Below, piece after piece: positions 11,271-33,787 of a stretch of 34,405 bases of DNA; the first letter of the stretch is position 1; every line of letters begins with the position of its first letter. Made by a program: the position numbers and the translations under genes. The notes beneath the pieces are model-generated. The model worked only from the letters and a program-made list of their open reading frames with translations. It had not been told where the DNA came from and did no database searches. The stretch is from IMG/VR virus record IMGVR_UViG_3300031575_000037, positions 1 through 34,405 of that record. One strand, given 5' to 3'. This DNA comes from a virus.

Positions 11271-11407
11271 ATGGAAGAGTATCTAAGAAGATAAGAAAAT
11301 ATAGCAAATTGAACTTTCTTGAATATGTTAATGCAGTGAAGCAGTGGCCACTCTCAGCAAGGTGGAGGCTTTGCTGGCATATCTTATTTCGTAAAGGTGT
11401 TGGTTAA
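11267..11407 (+). CDS. tiny basic protein before the giant gene (46 aa)
   Basis: ATG 11267 overlaps the previous stop (ATGA), and its TAA overlaps the next ATG (TAATG at 11405-11409). The product is strongly basic and aromatic, beginning MNGRVSKKIRKYSKLNFLEY and ending RWRLCWHILFRKGVG. The final part could be an amphipathic membrane-active helix. No family assigned. Overlaps on both sides are the main evidence that it is translated. Confidence 0.55.
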   Translation: MNGRVSKKIRKYSKLNFLEYVNAVKQWPLSARWRLCWHILFRKGVG

Positions 11408-14400
11408 TGAACGGATTTACGCTAAACGAAGGGGAATTACTAAAGAAATACGGGCAATCTAAGCAACTGGAGATAGAGCGTCTTTTGTCTCAATACGGGA
11501 CTTCCCTTGAAGATATGAGGGAAATGTATCCCCAGCTTACGGAAGCTATCTCAAAGAAACAATTAACAACTACATTTCCGACACAGCCGTTGTTCTTTAC
11601 TTCGTATGAAGCTGCTCAAATGGGGTTAGGACTCCAAGAGGGATGGATGCTGAAGATGACTCCGGCAGAGGGCAATGGTGGATATACTTCGAGTCTTATT
11701 ACCCCTGAGAAGTGGGAAATTACCGAGAGCGACCTTTATATCTCACCAGAAGGAACGCAATATACGGTGGCGGATATGCAAGCACTTCTCTCAATGCCAA
11801 CAGGAATCGCAGAACTGCTACCCTTCAAACTAGGACCTCTAACCATTGAAGACTTAACAGAAGAGGGGCAGCGCCTATACGAAGAGTATCAACAAGCTGG
11901 TGGCGCTTTAGATGTTAAAGGCTGGTTGGATTTAAGAGAAAGGCAGCAGTTAGAAACAGAACAGGTCTTTGGCAAGGTTTTCCCTCAGCAGGATATAGAT
12001 GAGGTCTTGGATTATATGGCAGCCAATCCTGAAGGATTCCTTGCTGATATACGGGAAATCGGGCCAACTGAGGAGATGGTGACATTCCTCAAAACACTGG
12101 AATTTGAAGATGAGGAGGGGAATACTCGGCATCTTAGTGATGACGAAATACAGGAATTGTTTGGCACAACCGCCGTGCCAGAGTATATTCCTGAAAGCTG
12201 GGTTAAGGATGTTTACTGGGACCCTTGGTGGGTTGGCTATGTCAATTTTATTGCTGGGCAAAGAGTAAACTTTGCTTCTATTTTGCCCAGCGTGATTACA
12301 TCTTTTTTTGAGAAAACCTTTTGGAAGCTATATCCAGAAGATGTAATAGAAAACCTCACTAGCAACCTTCAATCAGGTGCAGAAGAGAGATTCCTGCGAC
12401 TAACGGAAGAGAGCAATGCTTGGCTTCAGCAATGCCCTGAATTTGTCCCGAATCCTAAATACTCAGAAAATCCATTTGAGCAGACAGAGTTATTCAAAGA
12501 CCCAGGATACTACATTTATTCGTTCAGCAGTAGCCTTGTCTATTCGATGAGTGTTATGGGAACACTTATAGGAGTATCGGCTGCTGCTAGTCCTGCTGCT
12601 GGGATACCAGCTGCCATGATGGTAGCAGCAGGCCCAGAAGCTCATCAAATGACTGAGGAATTAGTCAATCTAGGTGTGCCATTTGAAGATGCTGCAATAT
12701 GGGGAGAGATTTACGGGTTAGTATCTGGTGGAATTGAAACAGCATCAGATTTACCTTTCGTCGGTACTATATTCAAACCAATCGGGCAGGCATTGAAGCC
12801 GATGTGGAATACAATCTTTAAGGGGGTTGCAAGCCGATTTGCCAAAGGTATTCTTACGGGACTCATTATCACTCAAGGCGAGGGTATTGAAGAGATATTC
12901 ACTCAGGTATCCCATAATGCCATTCTCAAGCATTACGATGAAACGCAATCTATCCTAGAGGGCGTAAGCCATGCTTATATTCAGGCAGTGATAGCGTCTC
13001 TACCGTTTGGGCTTATAGGTGGTTACAGTTCATATACTACATTCCATGATGAGTTATCGCCTGAGACACGAGATGAATATGATGGCTTGGTAGATGATGC
13101 AATGGAGGCTGGGGCTAGTAAACAACAGGCTCAAATATATGCTGCCAACGAGATTGCCAAAACCCCTGAAGGGGAAGCTGAATTATCTAAGGCTATCGAG
13201 GCAGCACAAGAGGAATATTGGGAGGAGCACCCTGAATTAACTCGTCCAAGTTTAGAAGCTTTGCCGATGACTGAGGGCATTGATGTTCTGCAAGATATTC
13301 AGGTTAGAGAGCAGATTACCGAAAGGCGTATGCCTACTCTTCCTGAAATCACCACTGGCCAGCCATACACAGCGACAGTTTATCGAGGCTATAAGGTTGA
13401 AGGGCAACCTCTAGATGAGGGCTTGTATGGCAAGGGAACTTACTACACTACGAACAGAGAATATGCCGAGACTTATGACGGCAAAGAGGTTATGACTGTC
13501 AATCTAAAGAATCCCTTTGTCATAAACAGCCATGCTGAGGCTGAGGCTTTTTGGAATGAGACTACAAGGCCAGCTAGAGAGCAGGCTCTTAATGAAGGCA
13601 AGACAGTAGAAGAAGCTGACGAATTGGCTGCGAGAGCAGCTAGGGAATGGCTTGAAAGTCGAGGCTATGATGGGCTTATAGCCAGAAACATCATAGCCCC
13701 AGGGGATGAGATTGTGGTGTTCGAGCCTGAGAAGTCCGTAGGGGCGAAAGTGCCAGTAGAAGAAGCAATTCCCACAACCGAAGCTGGTATGCCAGAGGCA
13801 GGGCTTCAGCCTTCTATGCTAGAGGAAGTCCCGGCTAAGGAAGTGAGACCTGAAGCAAGGGGGAAACTTGTCCAATCCCGCCTAGACGATTATCTAAGGC
13901 TTAGAGAGTATAACGCTAAGGCTGTTACAGACAGAATCGCCGAGATTAAGAAGGCTCTTGAAACTAAGGGCAGATTACCAAAGGAACTAGGACTCAAGGG
14001 GAATTTACGCATAGAGCTTGCCAGGCTTGAGGCATTACAGGAAGTTGATGCCGTAGAAAGCGTTGAGGAGCTTGACCATCTCATAAAGCAAGTGGCAGAG
14101 GAGATTGGGCTTCGGGAGATGCCCTATGCAGGCTATGGTGGCAAGGCACACATTGACTTGCTCAGAAGTCCCACTCATCGCTTATTCAAGGGATATAGTC
14201 TCAGGCAGCTAGAAGAGATGCTAAAGGTTTACCAGCAAGCTAGAGATTCACTAGGGAAAATCGCTGAACCAGCACCGAAACTTCCTGAACCGCCTGAGCC
14301 TAGCACTGAAGACATTGAACTGGTTAAGACTGACCCGACACCAGAATCGGATGCAAAGATTGTTGCGAAGTTTATTGAGGCTATCAAGGATGCCAAGCCA

Positions 14401-17400
14401 GCAAGGGAGGCTACCGAAGCATTAAAGCATGAGGAATTATCAAAGCGTTCTGCTATATATGCCAGTATACTTCAGGGTGGCGAAGGCTGGAAGGCATTTG
14501 ACGAAGCCAAAAGTGCATTGAGGGGGCCGCTACCTACCGCTGATTACGATATTGACCTCAGGAAGTTTGAAGTTACCGATGCTGATATAGAGCGAATGTT
14601 TGACAGGATTCGCACTGACGAAAATCTGCGACCCTTTGAAAAACTTAATACCGCCGAAGCCTTGACTAATTTAATCATGGGGCAAATACCAACTGAGGGT
14701 GAATTAGTATTACTCGAAAGGGAATTTGGCTCAGAGTTTGTCAAGGCTATTATGGATAAGATGCCCACCAGCCAGAAAGTTACTAGGATTGCTCTGGACA
14801 TAGCGAATATACCTCGTACTCTAAAGACTATAGCAGATTTATCAGCCACATTAAGGCAAGGGGCTACCCTGGCCGTTGGTCAACCTATTCAATTTGCCGA
14901 GGCATTTAAGAAGGAACTCAAGGTAATCTTCAGTGAAAAGAACTTTAAGCTGATAAATGAAATCGTACATAACAACGTGTATGCGGACAAAGCGGAGCGT
15001 TACGGGCTTTATATTGCACCTATAGAAGAAGCAGTTAAGATAGAAGCCCGGGAAGAAGCATTTAGAGGGCGACTAATTGAGAGAGTGCCAATTATCGGTT
15101 CGGTAGTACGAGCATCTGAAAGAGCATACATAACCTTTTTGAATGTATTGAGGATGGAGACATGGGCTTATTATTGCCGACAATGGGAGGGACAAAACAA
15201 AACAGTTAAAGACTATACCGACTTGGCATCCTTCATCAATCATGCTACTGGGCGTGGTGATTTAGGTGCATTAAGCAGGGCAGGGGCATACCTTTCAGCG
15301 GTCTTTTTCTCACCGCGTTATGTAACTTCTAGGCTTCAGCTTCCACTTGATTTAGTCAAGACAACTCCCACTGTGCGAAAGATAGTTGCTCGAAATCTTG
15401 TATCGTGGGTAGGTGCTAACTTACTGGTGATAATGCTACTGGAATTGGCTGGGGCTGATGTTGAAAAGGACCCACGTTCTAGCGATTTTGGGAAAGTTAG
15501 ATTTGGTAATACCAGGATAGACTTCTGGGCAGGCTTCCAGCCGTATGTAAGGAATGTCGCTCAGATAATTGCCGAAGAACGTAAGTCAACCAGGACTGGG
15601 GAAGTGTATAAATTTGACCCCATAGATATAGGGGTTAATTTTGTTAGGTCAAAACTTGCACCTATTCCTGGTTTATTGTGGAGCCTGAAATCAGGCAAGA
15701 CGTTCATAGGCGAAGAGCTAAGTGCCGAAAATGCTGAGAGTATAATTTATCAAGAGCTAACACCTTTGGCTGTTCAAGACTGGATAGATGCAGTCAGGTG
15801 GTCAAATGCAGGAGCAAGCACAATATATGGACTACTTGCAATGCTGGGTGTTGGTGTTCAAACATGGACTAATAATTGGGACACGGCTGCACAGCAGTTA
15901 GGATTGCCAGTGAGGTCAGAGACATTGCCCTATACTGTGGAAAACGAAATCTACGACATGAAGGATTACTACTCAGAAGTTGGGCAGATGATTGGTGGTG
16001 CTACTTATGAAATGTTGGTTGAAATAGGCAATATACCTGAATTGGTTTTGACAGTCGCTAAAGCAAAGGATATTAAGAGGGAGATTGACCAACTGCCGAA
16101 TAAAAGGTTGGTCAATATAAATGCCGATGAAAACGAAGGCGATACCTTTGAACAATATCGTGCTCAGTGGCTTGCTAGGCAAGCTATTACAAACGAGGGT
16201 GAATTAGCACAATTCGATGAAGAATATCCAAATGCACACTACGGCAATATGTCACAAAACCAATATTCATTGCTAGTTGAGTATCACTCATTATCGCCAA
16301 ATGCTCAGGCTGAGTTTTTAGGCAAGCATCCAGAACTTTATGCTAACCCTAGAGATGAATGGTTAAGAACTCATCCTGAAGAGAACGCTATATTAGCATT
16401 GCTAGGGCAATCTGATGTATTCAGTCTTGATGCTTTATCTAGGGTTAGCTCGTTGGCTAGTTCTCTCAATGTGCCACATAGTGCTTTGGTTATGGAAGAG
16501 CTAGACGATGTTGCGCAACTTCGCTTAAAGAACGATAAATTATTTGACCTGCTCGATGCTTATAGCGGACTCGATGATGAGATAAAAGATGCCGAAGGCT
16601 TAACTGCTAGGGATAGGGCAATTCAGGAACTATATGAAGATAACCCCGATTTCAGGAATGACATGAGGCGGATTGAGGCTTTACAGCAAGGGACGGAAGA
16701 GAATCCGACTCCCGAAGATATTATGGAGGGGTGGGTAGATAGAGGGATAATCGTTGACGAGTTTGGGGCTAACAGCGCTGAGGCTAAACTTTGGCTCCTA
16801 GACAACAAAGAGGTTCACCAGTGGGCATTAGACCGCGCTTTACTTACCGATGATGGCTCGGACTGGAATGAGCCTGTTCTGAGGCTTCTAGTGCAGTACA
16901 GAGATGATTTTGACAAGTATGAGGCTTATGGAGACATAAGCTCTGACAGCTATATTTCAAGCGATGAGCAAAGAGCAGAAGCACGGCGCCGATTATTATT
17001 CGATGAACAAGGAATGACTAGCTTTGGCAGGGCATACTACACAAGAGAAGCCTCAAGCCAGGGTTATTCTGAAAGCAACTGGAACGCCTTTGTAGAATAC
17101 TCGGCATTACCACAGTGGGGAAGCTGGCGAGAAAGATTCCTTTTAGATAACCCCAACTTCTACCATGAATACACGAACCCCGAGATTGGTAATCACCCGC
17201 TTATTGATAAATCGAAGGTGAAACCAGTTAATAGGGATAAGATTTACCAGCAGTTTTACGATGAGTTTCAGTCATGGGATGAGACAGGCGGCATGGCCAC
17301 CAAAGCTATTGAGAATATGAGGGCGGGACTTGACGACATAGAAAAGGGCGGCATGACTTTTAAGGAAGCTCGATATAGCGTGCAAGCCTATGACAATGGT

Positions 17401-17775
17401 TTGCCCGAAGATTTGGTGGATGATTATGTTGGCTACTATGAGATAGAAAAGAAAGCGGGCGTGGACTATTCTGCTGGCTGGTATGAAGATGACTGGTTCT
17501 TAATCGAGCACATGGATTTCTACCGCAAGATGCGTGAACTTAACCTATGGACAGAGGACAGAGACTTCAGCAAAGTGCCTACTAAACAGGTTTACAAGCT
17601 ATATAAGGACTACTTAGGCTTGCCAACGGGAGGTCCTAGAATAACTTTTAGAATCCAGCATCCCGAATTAGATGCATGGCTAGTTTGGGCCAAACAGTAT
17701 AGTTTTGCTAGTGATGCAACTAGGGATATATACTCTAAACACCCAGAGGAGTTTCTGGCATATTGGCCTAGATAG
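11407..17775 (+). CDS. giant polyvalent/internal virion protein with ADP-ribosyltransferase-like domain (2122 aa)
   Basis: This gene takes up about 18% of the window. Seen in order: a helical N-terminus (1-~300); hydrophobic stretches (~373-409 with VMGTLIGVSAAASPAAGIPA, ~430-456, ~480-490, ~524-543); an ART-like domain (~655-776: TVYRG with Arg660, GKGTYYTTNREYAETY, VNLKNPFVI, SRGYDGLIARN, EIVVFEPEKS); a coiled-coil-rich region; a domain at ~1126-1488 resembling the LPD38 'large polyvalent protein' domain, with ERAYITFLNVLR and a hydrophobic segment (~1332-1351); and a C-terminal third with repeated HPE/NPE motifs (KHPELYANPRDEW, SKHPEEFLAYWPR). Polyvalent proteins (Iyer and colleagues) are phage factors thought to enter with the DNA and modify host targets. 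Position between portal and capsid, and the absence of a tape measure, fit an ejected internal virion protein. Confidence 0.75.
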   Translation: MNGFTLNEGELLKKYGQSKQLEIERLLSQYGTSLEDMREMYPQLTEAISKKQLTTTFPTQPLFFTSYEAAQMGLGLQEGWMLKMTPAEGNGGYTSSLITPEKWEITESDLYISPEGTQYTVADMQALLSMPTGIAELLPFKLGPLTIEDLTEEGQRLYEEYQQAGGALDVKGWLDLRERQQLETEQVFGKVFPQQDIDEVLDYMAANPEGFLADIREIGPTEEMVTFLKTLEFEDEEGNTRHLSDDEIQELFGTTAVPEYIPESWVKDVYWDPWWVGYVNFIAGQRVNFASILPSVITSFFEKTFWKLYPEDVIENLTSNLQSGAEERFLRLTEESNAWLQQCPEFVPNPKYSENPFEQTELFKDPGYYIYSFSSSLVYSMSVMGTLIGVSAAASPAAGIPAAMMVAAGPEAHQMTEELVNLGVPFEDAAIWGEIYGLVSGGIETASDLPFVGTIFKPIGQALKPMWNTIFKGVASRFAKGILTGLIITQGEGIEEIFTQVSHNAILKHYDETQSILEGVSHAYIQAVIASLPFGLIGGYSSYTTFHDELSPETRDEYDGLVDDAMEAGASKQQAQIYAANEIAKTPEGEAELSKAIEAAQEEYWEEHPELTRPSLEALPMTEGIDVLQDIQVREQITERRMPTLPEITTGQPYTATVYRGYKVEGQPLDEGLYGKGTYYTTNREYAETYDGKEVMTVNLKNPFVINSHAEAEAFWNETTRPAREQALNEGKTVEEADELAARAAREWLESRGYDGLIARNIIAPGDEIVVFEPEKSVGAKVPVEEAIPTTEAGMPEAGLQPSMLEEVPAKEVRPEARGKLVQSRLDDYLRLREYNAKAVTDRIAEIKKALETKGRLPKELGLKGNLRIELARLEALQEVDAVESVEELDHLIKQVAEEIGLREMPYAGYGGKAHIDLLRSPTHRLFKGYSLRQLEEMLKVYQQARDSLGKIAEPAPKLPEPPEPSTEDIELVKTDPTPESDAKIVAKFIEAIKDAKPAREATEALKHEELSKRSAIYASILQGGEGWKAFDEAKSALRGPLPTADYDIDLRKFEVTDADIERMFDRIRTDENLRPFEKLNTAEALTNLIMGQIPTEGELVLLEREFGSEFVKAIMDKMPTSQKVTRIALDIANIPRTLKTIADLSATLRQGATLAVGQPIQFAEAFKKELKVIFSEKNFKLINEIVHNNVYADKAERYGLYIAPIEEAVKIEAREEAFRGRLIERVPIIGSVVRASERAYITFLNVLRMETWAYYCRQWEGQNKTVKDYTDLASFINHATGRGDLGALSRAGAYLSAVFFSPRYVTSRLQLPLDLVKTTPTVRKIVARNLVSWVGANLLVIMLLELAGADVEKDPRSSDFGKVRFGNTRIDFWAGFQPYVRNVAQIIAEERKSTRTGEVYKFDPIDIGVNFVRSKLAPIPGLLWSLKSGKTFIGEELSAENAESIIYQELTPLAVQDWIDAVRWSNAGASTIYGLLAMLGVGVQTWTNNWDTAAQQLGLPVRSETLPYTVENEIYDMKDYYSEVGQMIGGATYEMLVEIGNIPELVLTVAKAKDIKREIDQLPNKRLVNINADENEGDTFEQYRAQWLARQAITNEGELAQFDEEYPNAHYGNMSQNQYSLLVEYHSLSPNAQAEFLGKHPELYANPRDEWLRTHPEENAILALLGQSDVFSLDALSRVSSLASSLNVPHSALVMEELDDVAQLRLKNDKLFDLLDAYSGLDDEIKDAEGLTARDRAIQELYEDNPDFRNDMRRIEALQQGTEENPTPEDIMEGWVDRGIIVDEFGANSAEAKLWLLDNKEVHQWALDRALLTDDGSDWNEPVLRLLVQYRDDFDKYEAYGDISSDSYISSDEQRAEARRRLLFDEQGMTSFGRAYYTREASSQGYSESNWNAFVEYSALPQWGSWRERFLLDNPNFYHEYTNPEIGNHPLIDKSKVKPVNRDKIYQQFYDEFQSWDETGGMATKAIENMRAGLDDIEKGGMTFKEARYSVQAYDNGLPEDLVDDYVGYYEIEKKAGVDYSAGWYEDDWFLIEHMDFYRKMRELNLWTEDRDFSKVPTKQVYKLYKDYLGLPTGGPRITFRIQHPELDAWLVWAKQYSFASDATRDIYSKHPEEFLAYWPR

Positions 17776-19069: not shown

Positions 19070-20059
19070 ATGATTACCGGATATTTTGCCAGCACTACCG
19101 AAATGGTGAAGCTGGTGCAGTCCAAGTTACTACCCGGCATCGTCCAGGAGATATACGAGGTTGGGCAACTTATACCCATGCTCCCGATTACTACTATTGA
19201 CTCCTACACCCTGAAGTGGAACCGTGAGGCAACGCTCCCTGGTGTCTCCGCTAAGAGCAAGGGTGAGCAATATGGCTGGAAGGAAGTCGCTACTTATGGA
19301 CAGGCGGAATTGGCACTGAAGGAATTTGGCGACCAGTGGGCATTAGTCGCAGCGGCTCAGGAAACATACAAGGACCCCAACGACTACCGGGCAGCCATAC
19401 AGTCCCAGATCATAAAAGGGGCTCTCAGGACTATCGAGGACAAGCTCATTTACGGTGATGCCACCACTTACCCGAAGGAGTTTGATGGCCTGGACAAGCT
19501 GTGTCCGGCTGTTAGCGGACACACATTCGCTACTGCTCAGGATTGCGACCAAGGCGGTGGCACCGTAGGTCTTAGCATCGTCAACTTGCTGGGGCTTATC
19601 CATGCCTGCAAACCACGTCCTGACTTTTTACTGATGCCTCAAGAGATAGTTGACCAACTATTCATTTACAGTATGGGCAAGGCCGGAGCTATTATAATGG
19701 CTCGCACTCCTAGTGAGTTTGGAACACTGATTCCAAGCGTCAATGGTGTCCCCATTGTCCCATCGGACTACCTGGCAGATGAGAATGACAACACCGGTGG
19801 GAAGCTGGGTTCTGGAGGACTAGTAAGCATCTACGCTATCAGAAAAGGCTCAATCGAGGATGGCGGAGTCAGCCTTGCCGTTGGTGGTAAAACCGGTGGA
19901 CAAGACTTCTTTGAGGTTGACCACTTTGAGAAGCTGGAGAACTACAACGCTGAGGGTATTCGAGCATACTGCTACACAGCCTTAGCGAAGGGTAGCCCCA
20001 AGTCTATATCCCGAGTTCACAGCATTAAGAAGACTACGGCCATAGATGCAACAAGTTAA
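19070..20059 (+). CDS. major capsid protein, HK97-like fold
   Basis: The 329-residue protein follows the scaffold gene and has the expected features of the HK97-fold MCP class found in short-tailed phages. N-terminal helices (LVQSKLLPGIVQEIYEVGQL) come first, then the E-loop region (LKWNREATLPGVSAKSKGE), a spine helix (NDYRAAIQSQIIKGALRTIE), then EDKLIYGDATTYPKEFDGL, P-domain strands around RPDFLLMPQEIVDQLF, and VPIVPSDYL near the A-domain. It forms the icosahedral shell. A good Shine-Dalgarno (CAGGAGG) precedes it. High expression is expected. Confidence 0.88.
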   Translation: MITGYFASTTEMVKLVQSKLLPGIVQEIYEVGQLIPMLPITTIDSYTLKWNREATLPGVSAKSKGEQYGWKEVATYGQAELALKEFGDQWALVAAAQETYKDPNDYRAAIQSQIIKGALRTIEDKLIYGDATTYPKEFDGLDKLCPAVSGHTFATAQDCDQGGGTVGLSIVNLLGLIHACKPRPDFLLMPQEIVDQLFIYSMGKAGAIIMARTPSEFGTLIPSVNGVPIVPSDYLADENDNTGGKLGSGGLVSIYAIRKGSIEDGGVSLAVGGKTGGQDFFEVDHFEKLENYNAEGIRAYCYTALAKGSPKSISRVHSIKKTTAIDATS

Positions 20060-20113: not shown

Positions 20114-20539
20114 ATGACTTTATATGCTAGTGGAATGCAATCTCATGTCCGCAAAGGCACCATAAAGATTTCCAAGAGTAACTTCAACGCCAATGCCCTA
20201 TTAGGTGGTGTGGAGAACCCCGAAGATGAGGACATTCTAATTGATAGGGTAGTAGCCGACATTAAAACGGCAGCAGAGGCAGCGTGTAACCTTGAGGTTG
20301 GCCTGGGGGATAACGCTATTGATAACAGCCTGAATGCCACGATAATGTTTCTCGAGACTAATGCCATGAACATTGGTATTGCGACTGGACCGGCGGCAGC
20401 GATTAACGCCAACTGCAAAGTGGCAGCTCAAAACGCCAATCATAATGCCACTAACTCCTGGATTTTGATTGGTTCAAGTGTCATAGCAAACGCCGATGAC
20501 CTTGTGGCCGATGTCTATGTGGACTACATAATTCCGTAA
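20114..20539 (+). CDS. probable capsid decoration or head structural protein (141 aa)
   Basis: No known family is recognised. The protein is rich in Ala, Asn and Ile, with alternating patterns suggesting a beta fold: TIKISKSNFNANALLGG, CNLEVGLGDNAI, NATNSWILIGSSVIANAD. There is no signal peptide or membrane segment. It is the first gene after the major capsid gene, where head decoration (cement) or fibre proteins are often found; that is the only basis for the proposed role. A strong Shine-Dalgarno (CAGGAGG) precedes the ATG. Confidence 0.6.
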   Translation: MTLYASGMQSHVRKGTIKISKSNFNANALLGGVENPEDEDILIDRVVADIKTAAEAACNLEVGLGDNAIDNSLNATIMFLETNAMNIGIATGPAAAINANCKVAAQNANHNATNSWILIGSSVIANADDLVADVYVDYIIP

Positions 20540-20558
20540 CCGGAAAAAGGAGGCTGCT

Positions 20559-21875
20559 ATGTTAGATTTCATACTTTATACTTGCTCTTATGGGCTGGTT
20601 ACAGACCATACAGTAGTATCTGTTGAGAGACTACACAATACAAACTACAGGTTTGAGTGGTGGTTTCAGACAGGGGATGCTTTGATAAGCAGGAGTCGAA
20701 GCGTAGCAGCCTACCAGTTCTTGAAGAAAAACCGAGCACCTTATCTGATATTCCTAGACGGAGACATTATATTCACACCCGGAGACATCGAGAAGTTACT
20801 GGATGGTCTGAGTGGCGGACTAGATGTAGTGGGTGGGCTATACCCGGTAAGAGGAGGCACCTTCCTAGCTCAAAGAGGATGGAACGGGCATTTTCACATA
20901 TCAGGTAACTTAGAGGAAGTGCAGTTCGTCTCAACGGGATTTCTAGGGATTAGCCGTAACATCTTAGAAAAGATTACTCAGGATATGCCAGTTCTCAACG
21001 AGGGGAGCTGGTCGGAGTGTTATCCCATATTTGAGGTTGGTAGGTATGAAAATATCTACATCTCAGAGGATTGGGACTTCTGTAACAAGGCCAGACAGGC
21101 GGGATCGAAGGTTTATGCACATACCGGGATTCAGCTTCAACACCTGAAGGAAAAGGTTTACACCACTCAGGAAGCGATAGAGAAAATGACTTGGAAGCCA
21201 GAGAGTCCCGATTTATGGAATGACTTAGCTGAATATCTGGGGAAGGAGCCGAAGGAACTTGTTCCTCAAGCCGTAGCAACAAAGCAACTAGGCGATAGAT
21301 GGAAGGAGTGGCAAGGAACGTCTGAGGACTTCTACAAAGACCCAGAGATAGGCCAGCTTTATCTCTATGACTTAGTAGGGTTCAACTCCGCAAAGTTCTA
21401 CAAAGAGCAACGCATGGCTGGCATCAAGAACGCCGAGCATCTGAATATCCTTGATGTGGGCTGTGGCATAGGGACGGCGCTAATCGAACTCTCCTGGAAG
21501 AACAAAAACCTAGTCGGTTATGACATAAGCGAGACAGCGCTGGACTTCGCCCGGTTTAGAGCCACTAAAACAGGGGCAAGGAACGTGAGCTTTACCAGCG
21601 AATTTCCTCAAGACCTGAGCAAGTTTGACCTTGTTATCGCAATAGACACGCTAGAGCATATCGAGGACTTGCGTAGCTTTCTCTTGAAGCTAGGAAGAGG
21701 AATGAAGGAAGGTGCAAGACTTTACCATTTTGATTGTTTTTGGGAACACGAAGTAAGCCCAATGCACTTTGACCACAGCAAAAATATAGATGATTGGTTA
21801 AAGGAAGCAGGCTTAGTTATTTTTGACAACCATTGGTGTGTCAAAGGAGGTAATTATGCCAACGGCAGTAGATAA
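20559..21875 (+). CDS. bifunctional GT-A glycosyltransferase / SAM methyltransferase fusion (438 aa)
   Basis: N-terminal half (about 1-230): GT-A glycosyltransferase, with LISRSRSVAAYQF, the nucleotide-sugar DxD motif FLDGDIIF (Asp67-Gly-Asp69), VSTGFLGISRNIL and the catalytic-type EDWDFCNKARQAG (170-182). C-terminal half (about 270-430): class I methyltransferase, with SAM-binding LDVGCGIGTALIE (298-310), an acidic strand end YDIS (321-324) and the IDTLEHIED motif (362-370). It would move a sugar from a nucleotide donor and methylate a small molecule, sugar or protein. Sitting inside the head operon, a target on the virion (capsid or fibres) or on the host surface is possible. Its end overlaps the next small gene. 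Confidence 0.85.
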   Translation: MLDFILYTCSYGLVTDHTVVSVERLHNTNYRFEWWFQTGDALISRSRSVAAYQFLKKNRAPYLIFLDGDIIFTPGDIEKLLDGLSGGLDVVGGLYPVRGGTFLAQRGWNGHFHISGNLEEVQFVSTGFLGISRNILEKITQDMPVLNEGSWSECYPIFEVGRYENIYISEDWDFCNKARQAGSKVYAHTGIQLQHLKEKVYTTQEAIEKMTWKPESPDLWNDLAEYLGKEPKELVPQAVATKQLGDRWKEWQGTSEDFYKDPEIGQLYLYDLVGFNSAKFYKEQRMAGIKNAEHLNILDVGCGIGTALIELSWKNKNLVGYDISETALDFARFRATKTGARNVSFTSEFPQDLSKFDLVIAIDTLEHIEDLRSFLLKLGRGMKEGARLYHFDCFWEHEVSPMHFDHSKNIDDWLKEAGLVIFDNHWCVKGGNYANGSR

Positions 21876-22035
21876 CTTGACCAAAGAAAGTTCTGATGAT
21901 GCGGTCCTAGAGGCCGTTCAGAGTTGCATAAAGACTGAGATTGATAACGGCGAAGAGCCAGAACGGGCCTCCGCCATGTGCTACAACATGGCCCGGAAAA
22001 AGACCGGCAAGACCGCATTACTTTCCAGAAAGTAG
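21856..22035 (+). CDS. small hypothetical protein (59 aa)
   Basis: The frame is open from 21823, but AAAGGAGG 6 bases before ATG 21856 marks the real start, inside the end of the glycosyltransferase-methyltransferase gene. The product begins MPTAVDNLTKESSDDAVLEA and has two cysteines in a helical segment (VQSCIKTEID, SAMCYNMARKKTGK). The pattern recalls short helical motifs in phage head-associated proteins, but no function is known. It may bridge the GT-methyltransferase and head genes. Confidence 0.62.
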   Translation: MPTAVDNLTKESSDDAVLEAVQSCIKTEIDNGEEPERASAMCYNMARKKTGKTALLSRK

Positions 22036-22163: not shown

Positions 22164-22739
22164 ATGAAGAATTTATCGGGTATCAGGGCGACTGCGAGAC
22201 AATTTCTCCGCGACGAGTTTTCATCTAGCAATGATTATGAGTTCGCTGATGATGAACTGGATTTACATATTAACAAAGTCCTTGTAGAAATCTCTAACGT
22301 CAGTCCTTATGAAGTCAAGGAAACAATAGAAAGTGATGGCACAAGGGAGATAGACCTTAGCGAAATCACGGGCTTAATTGGGGACAAGGTTGTAAAGGTC
22401 GAATATCCCACAGGGAATTATCCGCCTAGCGAGTTGGAATTCAGTATTTTTGGGGATTCTCTAACACTTGAAAGCGAGCCGACTTCTGGGGAGGACATTT
22501 GTTTATATTGTCTTAAGGTTCACGAACTAACAGAATCTTCATCTACATTGAAACAAGGTGAAGAGGAAGTCTTAGTTGATGGTACTGTCGCTTTAGCTGC
22601 TCGTTCATGGCTAAACAGGATGCGGGCTCAGATAGTGCCAGCCAGTGCAAAGTGGTATCACGACTGGGCAAGTGAACACTACGCAATTTATCAGAAAGGA
22701 CTCGATTCAATCACTCCAGCGAAAGGCTGGAAATACTAA
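22164..22739 (+). CDS. head-tail adaptor/connector protein (191 aa)
   Basis: The protein starts with an amphipathic helix (IRATARQFLRDEF), then DDELDLHINKVLVEISNV, a pattern seen in phage head-tail adaptor (gp6-like/gp11-type) proteins. A beta middle follows (REIDLSEITGLIGDKVVKVE, LYCLKVHELTESS), and then a C-terminal helical part with AARSWLNRMRA and WYHDWASEHYAIYQKGL. This is the typical order alpha-beta-alpha of adaptors that bind below the portal. Its place after the head genes and before tail genes supports this. The start is ATG 22164 after AGGTGAG. Confidence 0.7.
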   Translation: MKNLSGIRATARQFLRDEFSSSNDYEFADDELDLHINKVLVEISNVSPYEVKETIESDGTREIDLSEITGLIGDKVVKVEYPTGNYPPSELEFSIFGDSLTLESEPTSGEDICLYCLKVHELTESSSTLKQGEEEVLVDGTVALAARSWLNRMRAQIVPASAKWYHDWASEHYAIYQKGLDSITPAKGWKY

Positions 22740-24548: not shown

Positions 24549-24584
24549 ATGCCCTATAGAATCCTGAAGGAAGATGGTGAATGA
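24549..24584 (+). CDS. possible coupled minicistron 3 (11 aa)
   Basis: ATG 24549 after TAGGAG encodes MPYRILKEDGE; its TGA overlaps the ATG of the large tail protein (ATGA at 24581-24584). The overlap would deliver ribosomes to the tail gene, which has no strong Shine-Dalgarno of its own. Confidence 0.35.
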   Translation: MPYRILKEDGE

Positions 24585-25939
24585 GACTTACAGAACACGG
24601 CAAAGCTAAGGTAAATGGGATTGATGAGTATGGCAGGACTATCGTTGGACGCATTACCGAGTTCGGTAGAATAGTTGGCATAGTAGCCCCCACAGCAGAA
24701 TACCTCGCAGCCTCTAATATAGGTCAAACTGTAGCCCGAACCAATGGGAAGATTTCAGAAGATGGCGGAGAGTCCTGTGAGGCTAGGTTCAGGTGGAGGA
24801 AGAAGGATTATCAAACCTTTTTCCCGATAGATCCCGTTGAAGTAACACCAGGGACTATCAACGAATGGACTGATGTAGATATCAGTGGTTATGTTCCCGT
24901 TGGAGCTACTGGTGCATTATTGCACTTGGTAAACAATCGGGTTAGTAGTGATGATATAGGATTGCGTAAGAAAGGTTCAGAGGACAATAGGTATCAGGAA
25001 TTAAGGCACAATGCTCATTGTTGGGCAGCCATTGGCATAGATAACAATAGAATTTTTGAAGCCTATATTGAGACTACATCTGAAGATTTCCAGATTTGGC
25101 TTGTTGGCTATACTACGGCTGGAGTTACATTTTTCACCAACGCTTATGACAAGTCTCTTTCAGATACGTTCCAGTGGAAAGATATTGATTGCCACACAGA
25201 AGCTCCTAATGCTATAGGCTTAATCTTTGAGGTTGTATCATCTGGCACTTACAGTTTTGGATTCAGGAAAAAGGGAAGTTCTGATAATAGGTATGAGGCA
25301 AATTTAGGGCATGATGCCTTTACTGTTATTATTGGTTGTGATGATTCTCAAGTTTGTCAAGGGTATATTGGAAGCACTGACCTTGATTTCTACTTGGTTG
25401 GCTACATAACGGCTGGAGCTGTTTTTAATACCAATGCTACTGACCTTAGCCTGGAAACTGTGGACAATTGGCTAGATTTGGCATCATTGCCCTCTAATGC
25501 TGTTATGGCCTTTATTGAGGTGTTTAATACTCCTCCTAGTGATAATAAATATGGTCTTAGAAAGAATGGTAGCTCAGAGGACATTTATTCAGATGGTATT
25601 TTTTACCCTTGGGCCTTTGTTGAGTGTGATAATGACAAAATTATAGAAGGCAAAATAGAGGATACAGGAATTGATTTTTTTCTTGTGGGGTATGCTTTAA
25701 CATGGACAGAAACAGAGTGGCAAAACACCCTAGAAACTGATGATGAATACTATGAGGATTTAGTCGATTTAGAGCCTGGAACAGAATACGAGTTCCAGAC
25801 GCAGGCTAAGAATAGTGCTGGCGAGGGCGAGTGGACTGCATCCGCATACTTTACGACCTTAATAGGTCAGCCTACTATGCGACGATGGGGAGGTTCTATC
25901 TTGCCTATAGGCGCACAAAGAATAGGAAAAGGATGGTGA
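24581..25939 (+). CDS. tail protein: FN3-type domain split by three tandem beta repeats (452 aa)
   Basis: Residues ~36-76 look like the first half of a fibronectin type III domain (SNIGQTVARTNGKI, then EDGGESCEARFRWRKK). Residues ~374-426 look like the second half (TWTETEWQNTLETDDEYYED, then LEPGTEYEFQTQAKNSAGEG and SAYFTT). Between them lie three ~90-residue repeats (96-187, 198-287, 296-373) sharing GLRKKGS-DNRY, an internal (C/G)-D-N/D strand, an EA/QG-YI segment and DF-LVGY. A short C-terminal tail (MRRWGGSILPIGAQRIGKGW) closes it. The repeat part uses many AT-rich codons. It is probably a carbohydrate- or receptor-binding tail fibre or appendage. Confidence 0.7.
   Translation: MRLTEHGKAKVNGIDEYGRTIVGRITEFGRIVGIVAPTAEYLAASNIGQTVARTNGKISEDGGESCEARFRWRKKDYQTFFPIDPVEVTPGTINEWTDVDISGYVPVGATGALLHLVNNRVSSDDIGLRKKGSEDNRYQELRHNAHCWAAIGIDNNRIFEAYIETTSEDFQIWLVGYTTAGVTFFTNAYDKSLSDTFQWKDIDCHTEAPNAIGLIFEVVSSGTYSFGFRKKGSSDNRYEANLGHDAFTVIIGCDDSQVCQGYIGSTDLDFYLVGYITAGAVFNTNATDLSLETVDNWLDLASLPSNAVMAFIEVFNTPPSDNKYGLRKNGSSEDIYSDGIFYPWAFVECDNDKIIEGKIEDTGIDFFLVGYALTWTETEWQNTLETDDEYYEDLVDLEPGTEYEFQTQAKNSAGEGEWTASAYFTTLIGQPTMRRWGGSILPIGAQRIGKGW
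24866..25699 (+). repeat. three tandem ~90-codon repeats in the tail protein
   Basis: Copies at 24866-25141, 25172-25441 and 25466-25699. Protein-level signatures shared by the copies are GLRKKGS/GFRKKGS/GLRKNGS, then DNRY or EDIY, then DF(Q/Y/F)-x-LVGY. The DNA copies have diverged, so the duplications are old. Confidence 0.75.
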
Positions 25940-32639: not shown

Positions 32640-32819
32640 ATGGTAACAAAGCGAATACAGCGGCGAGATGAGAATATCAGGCGTTACCGGCGAGAACACA
32701 AAACTCCATACCGCAAGATGGCTAAAATATTCAAATTAAGCCATACCCAAATTATGAATATAGTTAAGGCAGAGAACCACGAAGAGCAAAAAGAGAAGGT
32801 ATCGGTGGAGCAAAAATGA
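32640..32819 (+). CDS. small HTH protein upstream of the integrase (59 aa)
   Basis: The frame is open from 32619, but the promoter covers that part; ATG 32640 is the first start available on the predicted mRNA. The product is very basic: KRIQRRDENIRRYRREHKTP, then YRKMAKIFKLSHTQIMNIVK, a clear helix-turn-helix, and a charged tail. It could be an excisionase, repressor or regulator of integrase expression. The stop overlaps the integrase ATG (ATGA), so both are translated together. Leaderless start predicted. Confidence 0.75.
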   Translation: MVTKRIQRRDENIRRYRREHKTPYRKMAKIFKLSHTQIMNIVKAENHEEQKEKVSVEQK

Positions 32820-33787
32820 CAGTTACGCTAATTGAGGAAAACAGGGCGAGTAAACCTGTAAGCCGAGTTATAGGTACAGTTGATTATTTATTTCCTAATG
32901 CTAGAATAGCATCACCTGATACTGTTAACCACACGACAGGAAATGTAGGGGATGAGTACTTGCAGAAGGAAATCTCAAAGATTCTCCTTCTCAAATCGTA
33001 CGAAAGGGAGCTTCTACTCAAAGACCTTTCTCCTGTTAGTGTTGCCAAATACAAGCAACAGGTTAAATCTTTCTGCGGGTGGCTCGGTCAACGAGAACCA
33101 TCTGCAGAACTAGCAAAATTATTCTTAGCCGAATTAAAGATATCCGGTTATAGCAATGCAGGCATCCGCTCATATTATGCTGCGATTAAGCCTTTCCTGA
33201 AATGGCTTAATATTGAGTTCAAGCTAAAGCTAAAGAAAGAAAAAAGACTTCCACGCTATCACGCTAAAAGCGAGCTTGATCGTTTAATTCAGGCAATTGC
33301 TAATCGCAAGGATACCTGGGCTAAGAATAGCGAGCGGGATATTCTCATAGTCAAAGTCTTTGCCTACACTGGCATAAGGCGTTCTGAATTGTTATCTCTT
33401 AAAAGTCAGGATATTGCCAAGGGATTTCTGTTTGTTCAACAGGGCAAGGGGCAGAAGGATAGAGTAATCCCGCTAATCAAAAGCCTTCAAAATGATATAG
33501 CTGATTATGTTAGCAAGCACAATCTAGTGCCGGCTGATAGGTTATTCCCGATTGGTAAGAACCGACTTGACAGGATGATTAGGGAATCCGCCGCTAAAGC
33601 AGGGCTAGCTAACATTACTCCACACCAACTCAGGCATTGTTTTGCCACTTGGTTGATGGAAAGAGGGGCAGAATTGCGAAAAGTCCAGGAATTGCTGGGC
33701 CACGAGGATATATCAACAACGGCAATTTATCTTGATGTGATACCAAGACACCTTAAAGAAACAGTCGAACTTTTGGAGGAGGAATAG
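32816..33787 (+). CDS. int: tyrosine recombinase / phage integrase
   Basis: The 323-residue protein is complete. An N-terminal arm/SAM-like core-binding domain (~50-140: VAKYKQQVKSFCGWL, AAIKPFLKWLNIEF) is followed by the catalytic domain with Arg188 in YTGIRRSELLSL, Lys211 in GKGQKDR, His270 and Arg273 in HQLRH, His296 in LGHEDIS and the nucleophile Tyr305 in TTAIYLDV. It cuts and joins phage and host att sites, making the phage temperate. It is most like XerC/D-type integrases. No att core could be identified by eye. Confidence 0.95.
   Translation: MTVTLIEENRASKPVSRVIGTVDYLFPNARIASPDTVNHTTGNVGDEYLQKEISKILLLKSYERELLLKDLSPVSVAKYKQQVKSFCGWLGQREPSAELAKLFLAELKISGYSNAGIRSYYAAIKPFLKWLNIEFKLKLKKEKRLPRYHAKSELDRLIQAIANRKDTWAKNSERDILIVKVFAYTGIRRSELLSLKSQDIAKGFLFVQQGKGQKDRVIPLIKSLQNDIADYVSKHNLVPADRLFPIGKNRLDRMIRESAAKAGLANITPHQLRHCFATWLMERGAELRKVQELLGHEDISTTAIYLDVIPRHLKETVELLEEE

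Follow-up and report, generated by a model that had tools for sequence, protein, structure and literature searches.

Why does a virus carry, among the genes for its head, a single gene that encodes both a glycosyltransferase and a methyltransferase, and what does the encoded protein modify? The question is raised by a 34,405-nucleotide stretch of DNA from an uncultured phage (IMG/VR record IMGVR_UViG_3300031575_000037), whose full length we call the window. The original prediction for this DNA held that one gene joins a GT-A glycosyltransferase (GT) half to a SAM methyltransferase (MT) half and that its location suggests modification either of virion proteins by methylated sugars or of host glycans for superinfection control.

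The gene is a genuine fusion of a GT-A glycosyltransferase and a class I SAM methyltransferase; it is conserved and linked to the capsid gene (Table 1). The predicted motifs lie exactly where they had been placed: DGD, a DxD motif, at residues 67-69, EDWDFC from residue 170 (as part of SEDWDFC, 169-175) and, in the MT half, motif I, LDVGCGIGT, at residues 298-306. The GT half also has RSRS at residues 45-48. The structure matches described below agree with this assignment, as do the Pfam matches, which are Glycos_transf_2 (PF00535) at residues 50-138 (26.0 bits; cut-off 23.3) and Methyltransf_31 at residues 293-406 (62.2 bits; cut-off 27). Across 28 divergent homologues, D67, D69, S169-E170-D171-W172 and other residues are invariant. 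We estimated dN/dS for the window against five relatives (L004, L005, L007, L010 and L011), considering only comparisons in which synonymous sites are unsaturated. The GT half gives ratios of 0.04-0.08 and the MT half 0.06-0.12, similar to those of the capsid gene (0.07-0.09), and both halves appear to be maintained by strong purifying selection. Because the motif residues are invariant in the homologues and dN/dS is low, a chance origin of the fusion is excluded.

Table 1. Features of the head gene block around the GT-MT gene (positions in the window)
Feature	Positions	Strand	Basis
Major capsid protein (MCP), possible acceptor	19070-20059	+	PHROG major head protein phrog_212, E 1.7e-24
Cement/decoration protein type A, 141 aa, proposed acceptor	20114-20539	+	Predicted fold
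Intergenic stretch, 19 bases, with ribosome-binding site AAAGGAGG immediately 5' of the GT-MT ATG	20540-20558	+	Sequence; scan without terminator or promoter match
GT-MT fusion gene	20559-21875	+	ORF, 438 aa
GT-A glycosyltransferase half, residues 1-212	20559-21194	+	Pfam PF00535; STIV A197 profile and structure match
Helical linker, residues 213-285	21195-21413	+	AlphaFold2 secondary structure; alignment
Class I SAM methyltransferase half, residues 286-438 and stop	21414-21875	+	Pfam Methyltransf_31, E 5.7e-17; structure matches
ORF, 59 aa, start overlapping the last 20 bases of GT-MT	21856-22035	+	Sequence, AAAGGAGG just 5'
191-aa gene, right border of the cassette, perhaps head-tail connection	22164-22739	+	Next gene kept in relatives, GT-bearing or not

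In an AlphaFold2 model of the protein (mean pLDDT 89), each half is predicted with confidence, but how the two are oriented to each other is uncertain (pTM 0.58). The modelled GT half combines the GT-A fold with a DxD motif for nucleotide-sugar and metal. The solved structure that it matches best is STIV A197, from an archaeal virus (PDB 2C0N; Z 20.6, 173 residues, 2.3 A), to which it is also related by profile comparison (E 4.5e-9). The structures ranking after A197 are LH3, COLGALT1 and mimivirus R699; the alignment to human LH3 spans LH3 residues 295-536, which we take to be the accessory GT domain and not the active one. The catalytic base of A197 is Asp151; the invariant S169-E170-D171-W172 of the window's GT half is a candidate site for its counterpart.

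The MT half, as modelled, has the Rossmann fold and the motif I GxGxG of class I SAM methyltransferases. It matches solved members of this class with Z of about 16-17, including UbiG, phosphoethanolamine methyltransferases (PMT) and AtmM. The last of these is a sugar O-methyltransferase (Z 15.9, 24% identity). However, N-, C- and other O-methyltransferases match as well, and because the matches span all these types, sugar O-methylation is not pinned down; the structure matches fix the fold and leave the substrate undecided. The top sequence matches, together with LicD neighbours in relatives, prompted us to consider a role as a phosphoethanolamine N-methyltransferase, which is less likely here because no LicD is seen in the window.

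The gene directly upstream bears on the question of what is modified. We call its product a cement protein, type A, because its predicted jelly-roll fold matches phage capsid and cement proteins; the AlphaFold2 model has moderate confidence (pLDDT 77.5). The top four structure matches of this model are all phage capsid chains (KHP40 cement, Pam1, GP4 and KHP30; Z 9.2-9.6). These outrank every other structure match, and at least one of them, the trimeric protein of KHP40, is a named cement protein. The product therefore has, in its predicted form, the small jelly-roll of the KHP30, Pam1 and GP4 cement proteins. While the predicted fold is like those of the KHP30/KHP40, Pam1 and GP4 proteins, sequence identity to them is only 9-14%, and we found no helpful sequence match for type A cement. 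A match of the gene to PF02007 (MtrH) was set aside as chance, at 20 bits against a cut-off of 22.8.

The fusion gene had been described as sitting between capsid and decoration genes on one side and a head-tail adaptor gene on the other. The capsid part of this description stands through the PHROG match, and the decoration part through the cement-like predicted fold. The head-tail adaptor label stays a guess, because the 191-aa gene has no Pfam or PHROG match. Judging from the overlap of their reading frames, the 59-aa ORF is likely to be translationally coupled to the GT-MT gene; ORFs of similar size also occur 3' of GT or cement genes in L037, L057 and L062. Elsewhere in the window, a 2122-aa ORF (11407-17775) lies between portal-like and scaffold-like genes. 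It has a weak resemblance, below threshold, to an ADP-ribosyltransferase domain of polyvalent proteins (residues 676-775; 27.4 bits, cut-off 31.2), differs strongly between relatives and may encode an injected internal head protein. In the early region (378-2090), genes of the DUF5131 and PAPS-reductase families are adjacent.

The original prediction had asked for a survey of the same locus in related phages. Two scans of IMG/VR found close relatives (71-100% identity) on 16 contigs (L001-L014, L028 and L030), and the capsid gene, the type A cement gene and the GT-MT gene occur in this order in all 16. Between L013 and the window, the MCP is only 23% identical, the cement protein 59% and GT-MT 71%. 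L001 is identical to the window in protein sequence across the head block. At the fn3-containing tail gene (24581-25939), the identity of L001 to the window is only 65-77%, an abrupt mosaic border. Two contigs have two tandem type A cement genes 5' of GT-MT (L028:6062-6924 and L030:7120-7982).

A scan with the capsid protein uncovered near relatives that lack the GT (L056, L057, L062, L064 and L067), none of which has type A cement. A type B cement gene takes the place of type A in three of them (L057, L062 and L064) and a gene for an unrelated 287-aa protein does so in L056; in L067 both GT and cement genes are missing. Two further contigs, L063 and L069, were left out of this count since they end too early. 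On the capsid tree, GT presence requires four changes, at least three of which are forced by well-supported branches, and at these gains or losses the type of cement switches too. A scan with the cement gene did not find type A cement without the GT; in L037, the GT is paired with a different cement type. It might seem that this association demonstrates a functional pairing of enzyme and cement. However, linkage could also produce it, because one exchange between the MCP gene and the next gene moves both. Since linkage explains the association equally well, we count it as support only and do not use it as functional proof.

More distant relatives of the GT extend the association with head genes. 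The GT lies 3' of head genes in L032-L043 and L045-L049, and 5' of the capsid gene in L044 and L050. The adjoining capsid genes were PHROG major head proteins in 10 of 10 cases tested (phrog_212, 267, 10 and 283). In many of these relatives the GT follows the MCP gene directly, with no intervening cement gene, so cement cannot be the acceptor in the family as a whole.

The partners of the GT also vary. According to the GT tree, the state of the C-terminal MT has changed at least five times, and the form with an N-terminal MT (L045 and L046) is a separate clade. The partner is LicD in L033, L037, L038, L040, L041 and L006 (with a Pfam LicD score below the cut-off in L006), a cytidylyltransferase-like gene in L038, and a GT4-MT and B12-radical-SAM pair in L015. 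L035 has a second GT, NeuB, cytidylyltransferase and aminotransferase genes. As a side observation, the region 3' of GT-MT in that contig (L035:10162-15868) comprises the second GT, a B12-radical-SAM gene, NeuB, the cytidylyltransferase and a class III aminotransferase, and resembles a nonulosonic-acid pathway adjoining capsid genes. Another concerns the L015 pair: at L015:580-2145, within the head region that also encodes the GT-A/MT fusion, a GT-B (GT4-like) domain and a methyltransferase are joined in a second, unrelated fusion.

We found no close relative of GT-MT in INPHARED. Its distant relatives there include the cultured Microcystis phage Mel-JY34, in which the GT gene, XAI96494, is directly 3' of the MCP gene (by a weak but significant profile match), and Synechococcus phage ACG-2014f, in which it lies amid tail-collar genes. 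In Rhodobacteraceae phage OP947162 and the Manatee Spring phages (about 30% identity or less), the GT is located in replication/recombination regions, so the family is not always structural. Homologues encoded away from structural genes, which the original prediction had regarded as counter-evidence, are thus confined to distant relatives, and no close relative is among them. Of two genome scans for a prophage carrying a relative, the first found none and the second a single distant GT on a contig of a Salinibacterium MAG, around which we recognised no head gene.

Known systems offer three comparisons. A197 is essential in STIV and is proposed to glycosylate the coat protein of that virus, which is itself glycosylated (PMC10551542). 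Like the GT half, it is a viral GT-A enzyme, the nearest one by both profile and structure, with a proposed cytoplasmic action on a virion protein. It differs in having no methyltransferase, in the unrelated virus type and capsid fold, and in an identity of about 20%. PBCV-1 A064R has two GT (rhamnosyltransferase) domains and an MT in one chain, which builds and O-methylates the end of the capsid glycan; its MT acts on the sugar put on by its own second GT domain (PMC9614988). It shares with the window the placement of virus-encoded GT and MT on a single polypeptide, but has two GT domains, belongs to a large algal virus and acts on an N-glycan acceptor. The A064R-D1 structure is absent among the structural matches listed for GT-MT, an absence that does not exclude common ancestry.

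Among tailed phages, Corndog encodes three GTs and an O-methyltransferase between the portal and protease genes of its head operon (PMC4351075), and glycosylation of its capsid has been reported (Freeman 2023, as cited in PMC12363180). The gp35-gp38 genes of this cluster thus resemble the window in placing an O-methyltransferase and GTs within a head operon, but they are separate genes, with a TylF-type O-methyltransferase and a GT25-type GT. Homology to these enzymes was rejected, as hhalign probabilities against Firecracker gp33-gp36, which represented the cluster in our comparison, were 0.1-9%. Precedents for this kind of system already exist in Corndog and A064R, and the window's fusion is a further variant; A064R is the nearest precedent for the chemistry, which was tested there, and Corndog the nearest among phages. 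Our literature search did not find a phage GT-MT fusion acting on the capsid or a glycosylated phage cement protein.

Virion glycosylation by GT-MT is likely. We infer catalysis, donor, acceptor, order of steps and benefit as follows. The protein would be soluble and expressed along with the late genes for the head. In the cytoplasm, its GT-A half would take a sugar from a nucleotide-sugar of the host and attach it to a virion protein; the type A cement encoded directly 5' is the most likely acceptor and the MCP the next. The MT half would then cap this sugar, or one added after it, by methylation with SAM. Released virions would bear a short methylated glycan on the head exterior, where it might serve shielding, stability or attachment. 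As a whole, the account of a soluble two-step enzyme that glycosylates cement, or else capsid, and then caps the sugar is one we regard as probable.

Within this account, it is quite conceivable, if not our first choice, that the acceptor is the MCP, the tail tube or a fibre rather than cement. The many relatives without a cement gene between the MCP gene and the GT fit such an acceptor, as does the tail-collar setting in ACG-2014f, and capsid and tail tube proteins are glycosylated in mycobacteriophages (PMC12363180; PMC12619734). In the lineage of the window, however, the cement type tracks the GT and the MCP does not. By comparison, it is unlikely that GT-MT alters a surface glycan of the infected or lysogenic host and so blocks superinfection, in a manner like serotype conversion. 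In favour of this idea, a tyrosine integrase (32816-33787) indicates a probably temperate phage, the LicD and NeuB partners of relatives are also known from surface glycans, and a GT encoded between the portal and MCP genes of a gut phage has been interpreted in this way (PMC8008677). However, neither a flippase nor a membrane-anchored GT (GtrB/GtrC-like) was seen among the ORFs of the window, a record that may be a fragment, and the gene content as read here does not appear to form a gtrABC serotype-conversion module. The GT-MT protein has no detected transmembrane segment (maximum 19-residue hydropathy 1.2), the scan of the block for promoters and terminators gave matches only at chance level, and the tight position in a late head operon is kept in every close relative. 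The two alternatives of the original prediction have thus fared differently: the reading that virion proteins receive a methylated sugar is the best supported, by gene order, STIV A197, Corndog and A064R, while a role in host glycans and superinfection has little support.

It seems to us rather improbable that the gene is a moron that hitchhikes without any function in the virion and is paired with cement through linkage only. Its absence from five near relatives means that the GT is dispensable, but strong purifying selection on both halves argues against this explanation, as does the GT's retention beside capsid genes in unrelated phages, where MT, LicD and sugar genes have repeatedly become its partners. 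Phage GTs modify DNA in other systems, and distant relatives of the GT adjoin RusA, exonuclease and methyltransferase genes, so that glycosylation or hypermodification of the phage DNA might be proposed. We give this very little credence: the early genes scanned include no base-hydroxymethylating, thymidylate-synthase-like or TET-like enzyme, and GT-MT is a gene of the head operon. The preferred reading is still the two-step modification of a virion protein.

Phage-encoded virion glycosylation is documented in few phages. Because relatives of the GT adjoin capsid genes in many unrelated phages, glycosylation of phage capsids may be commoner than thought. The gene described here would be a two-step enzyme with its presumed acceptor encoded next door, and its family ties the GTs of tailed phages to A197 of an archaeal virus. 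The family can be recognised from sequence and keeps its place next to capsid genes, and could therefore be a marker for glycosylated virions in uncultured phages; near-identical phages with and without the cassette would permit a direct test of the role of a capsid glycan. More tentatively, the locus may exemplify a widespread, unannotated capsid-glycosylation cassette that many unrelated tailed phages from the environment would carry in their head operons. It would combine an A197-like GT beside the capsid gene with modules for the second step that can be swapped (MT at either end, LicD, NeuB/CMP-sugar genes) and, in some lineages, with a matching cement gene that moves with it. If this is true, capsid glycan coats would be common in tailed phages, and enzyme and acceptor would evolve as a pair.
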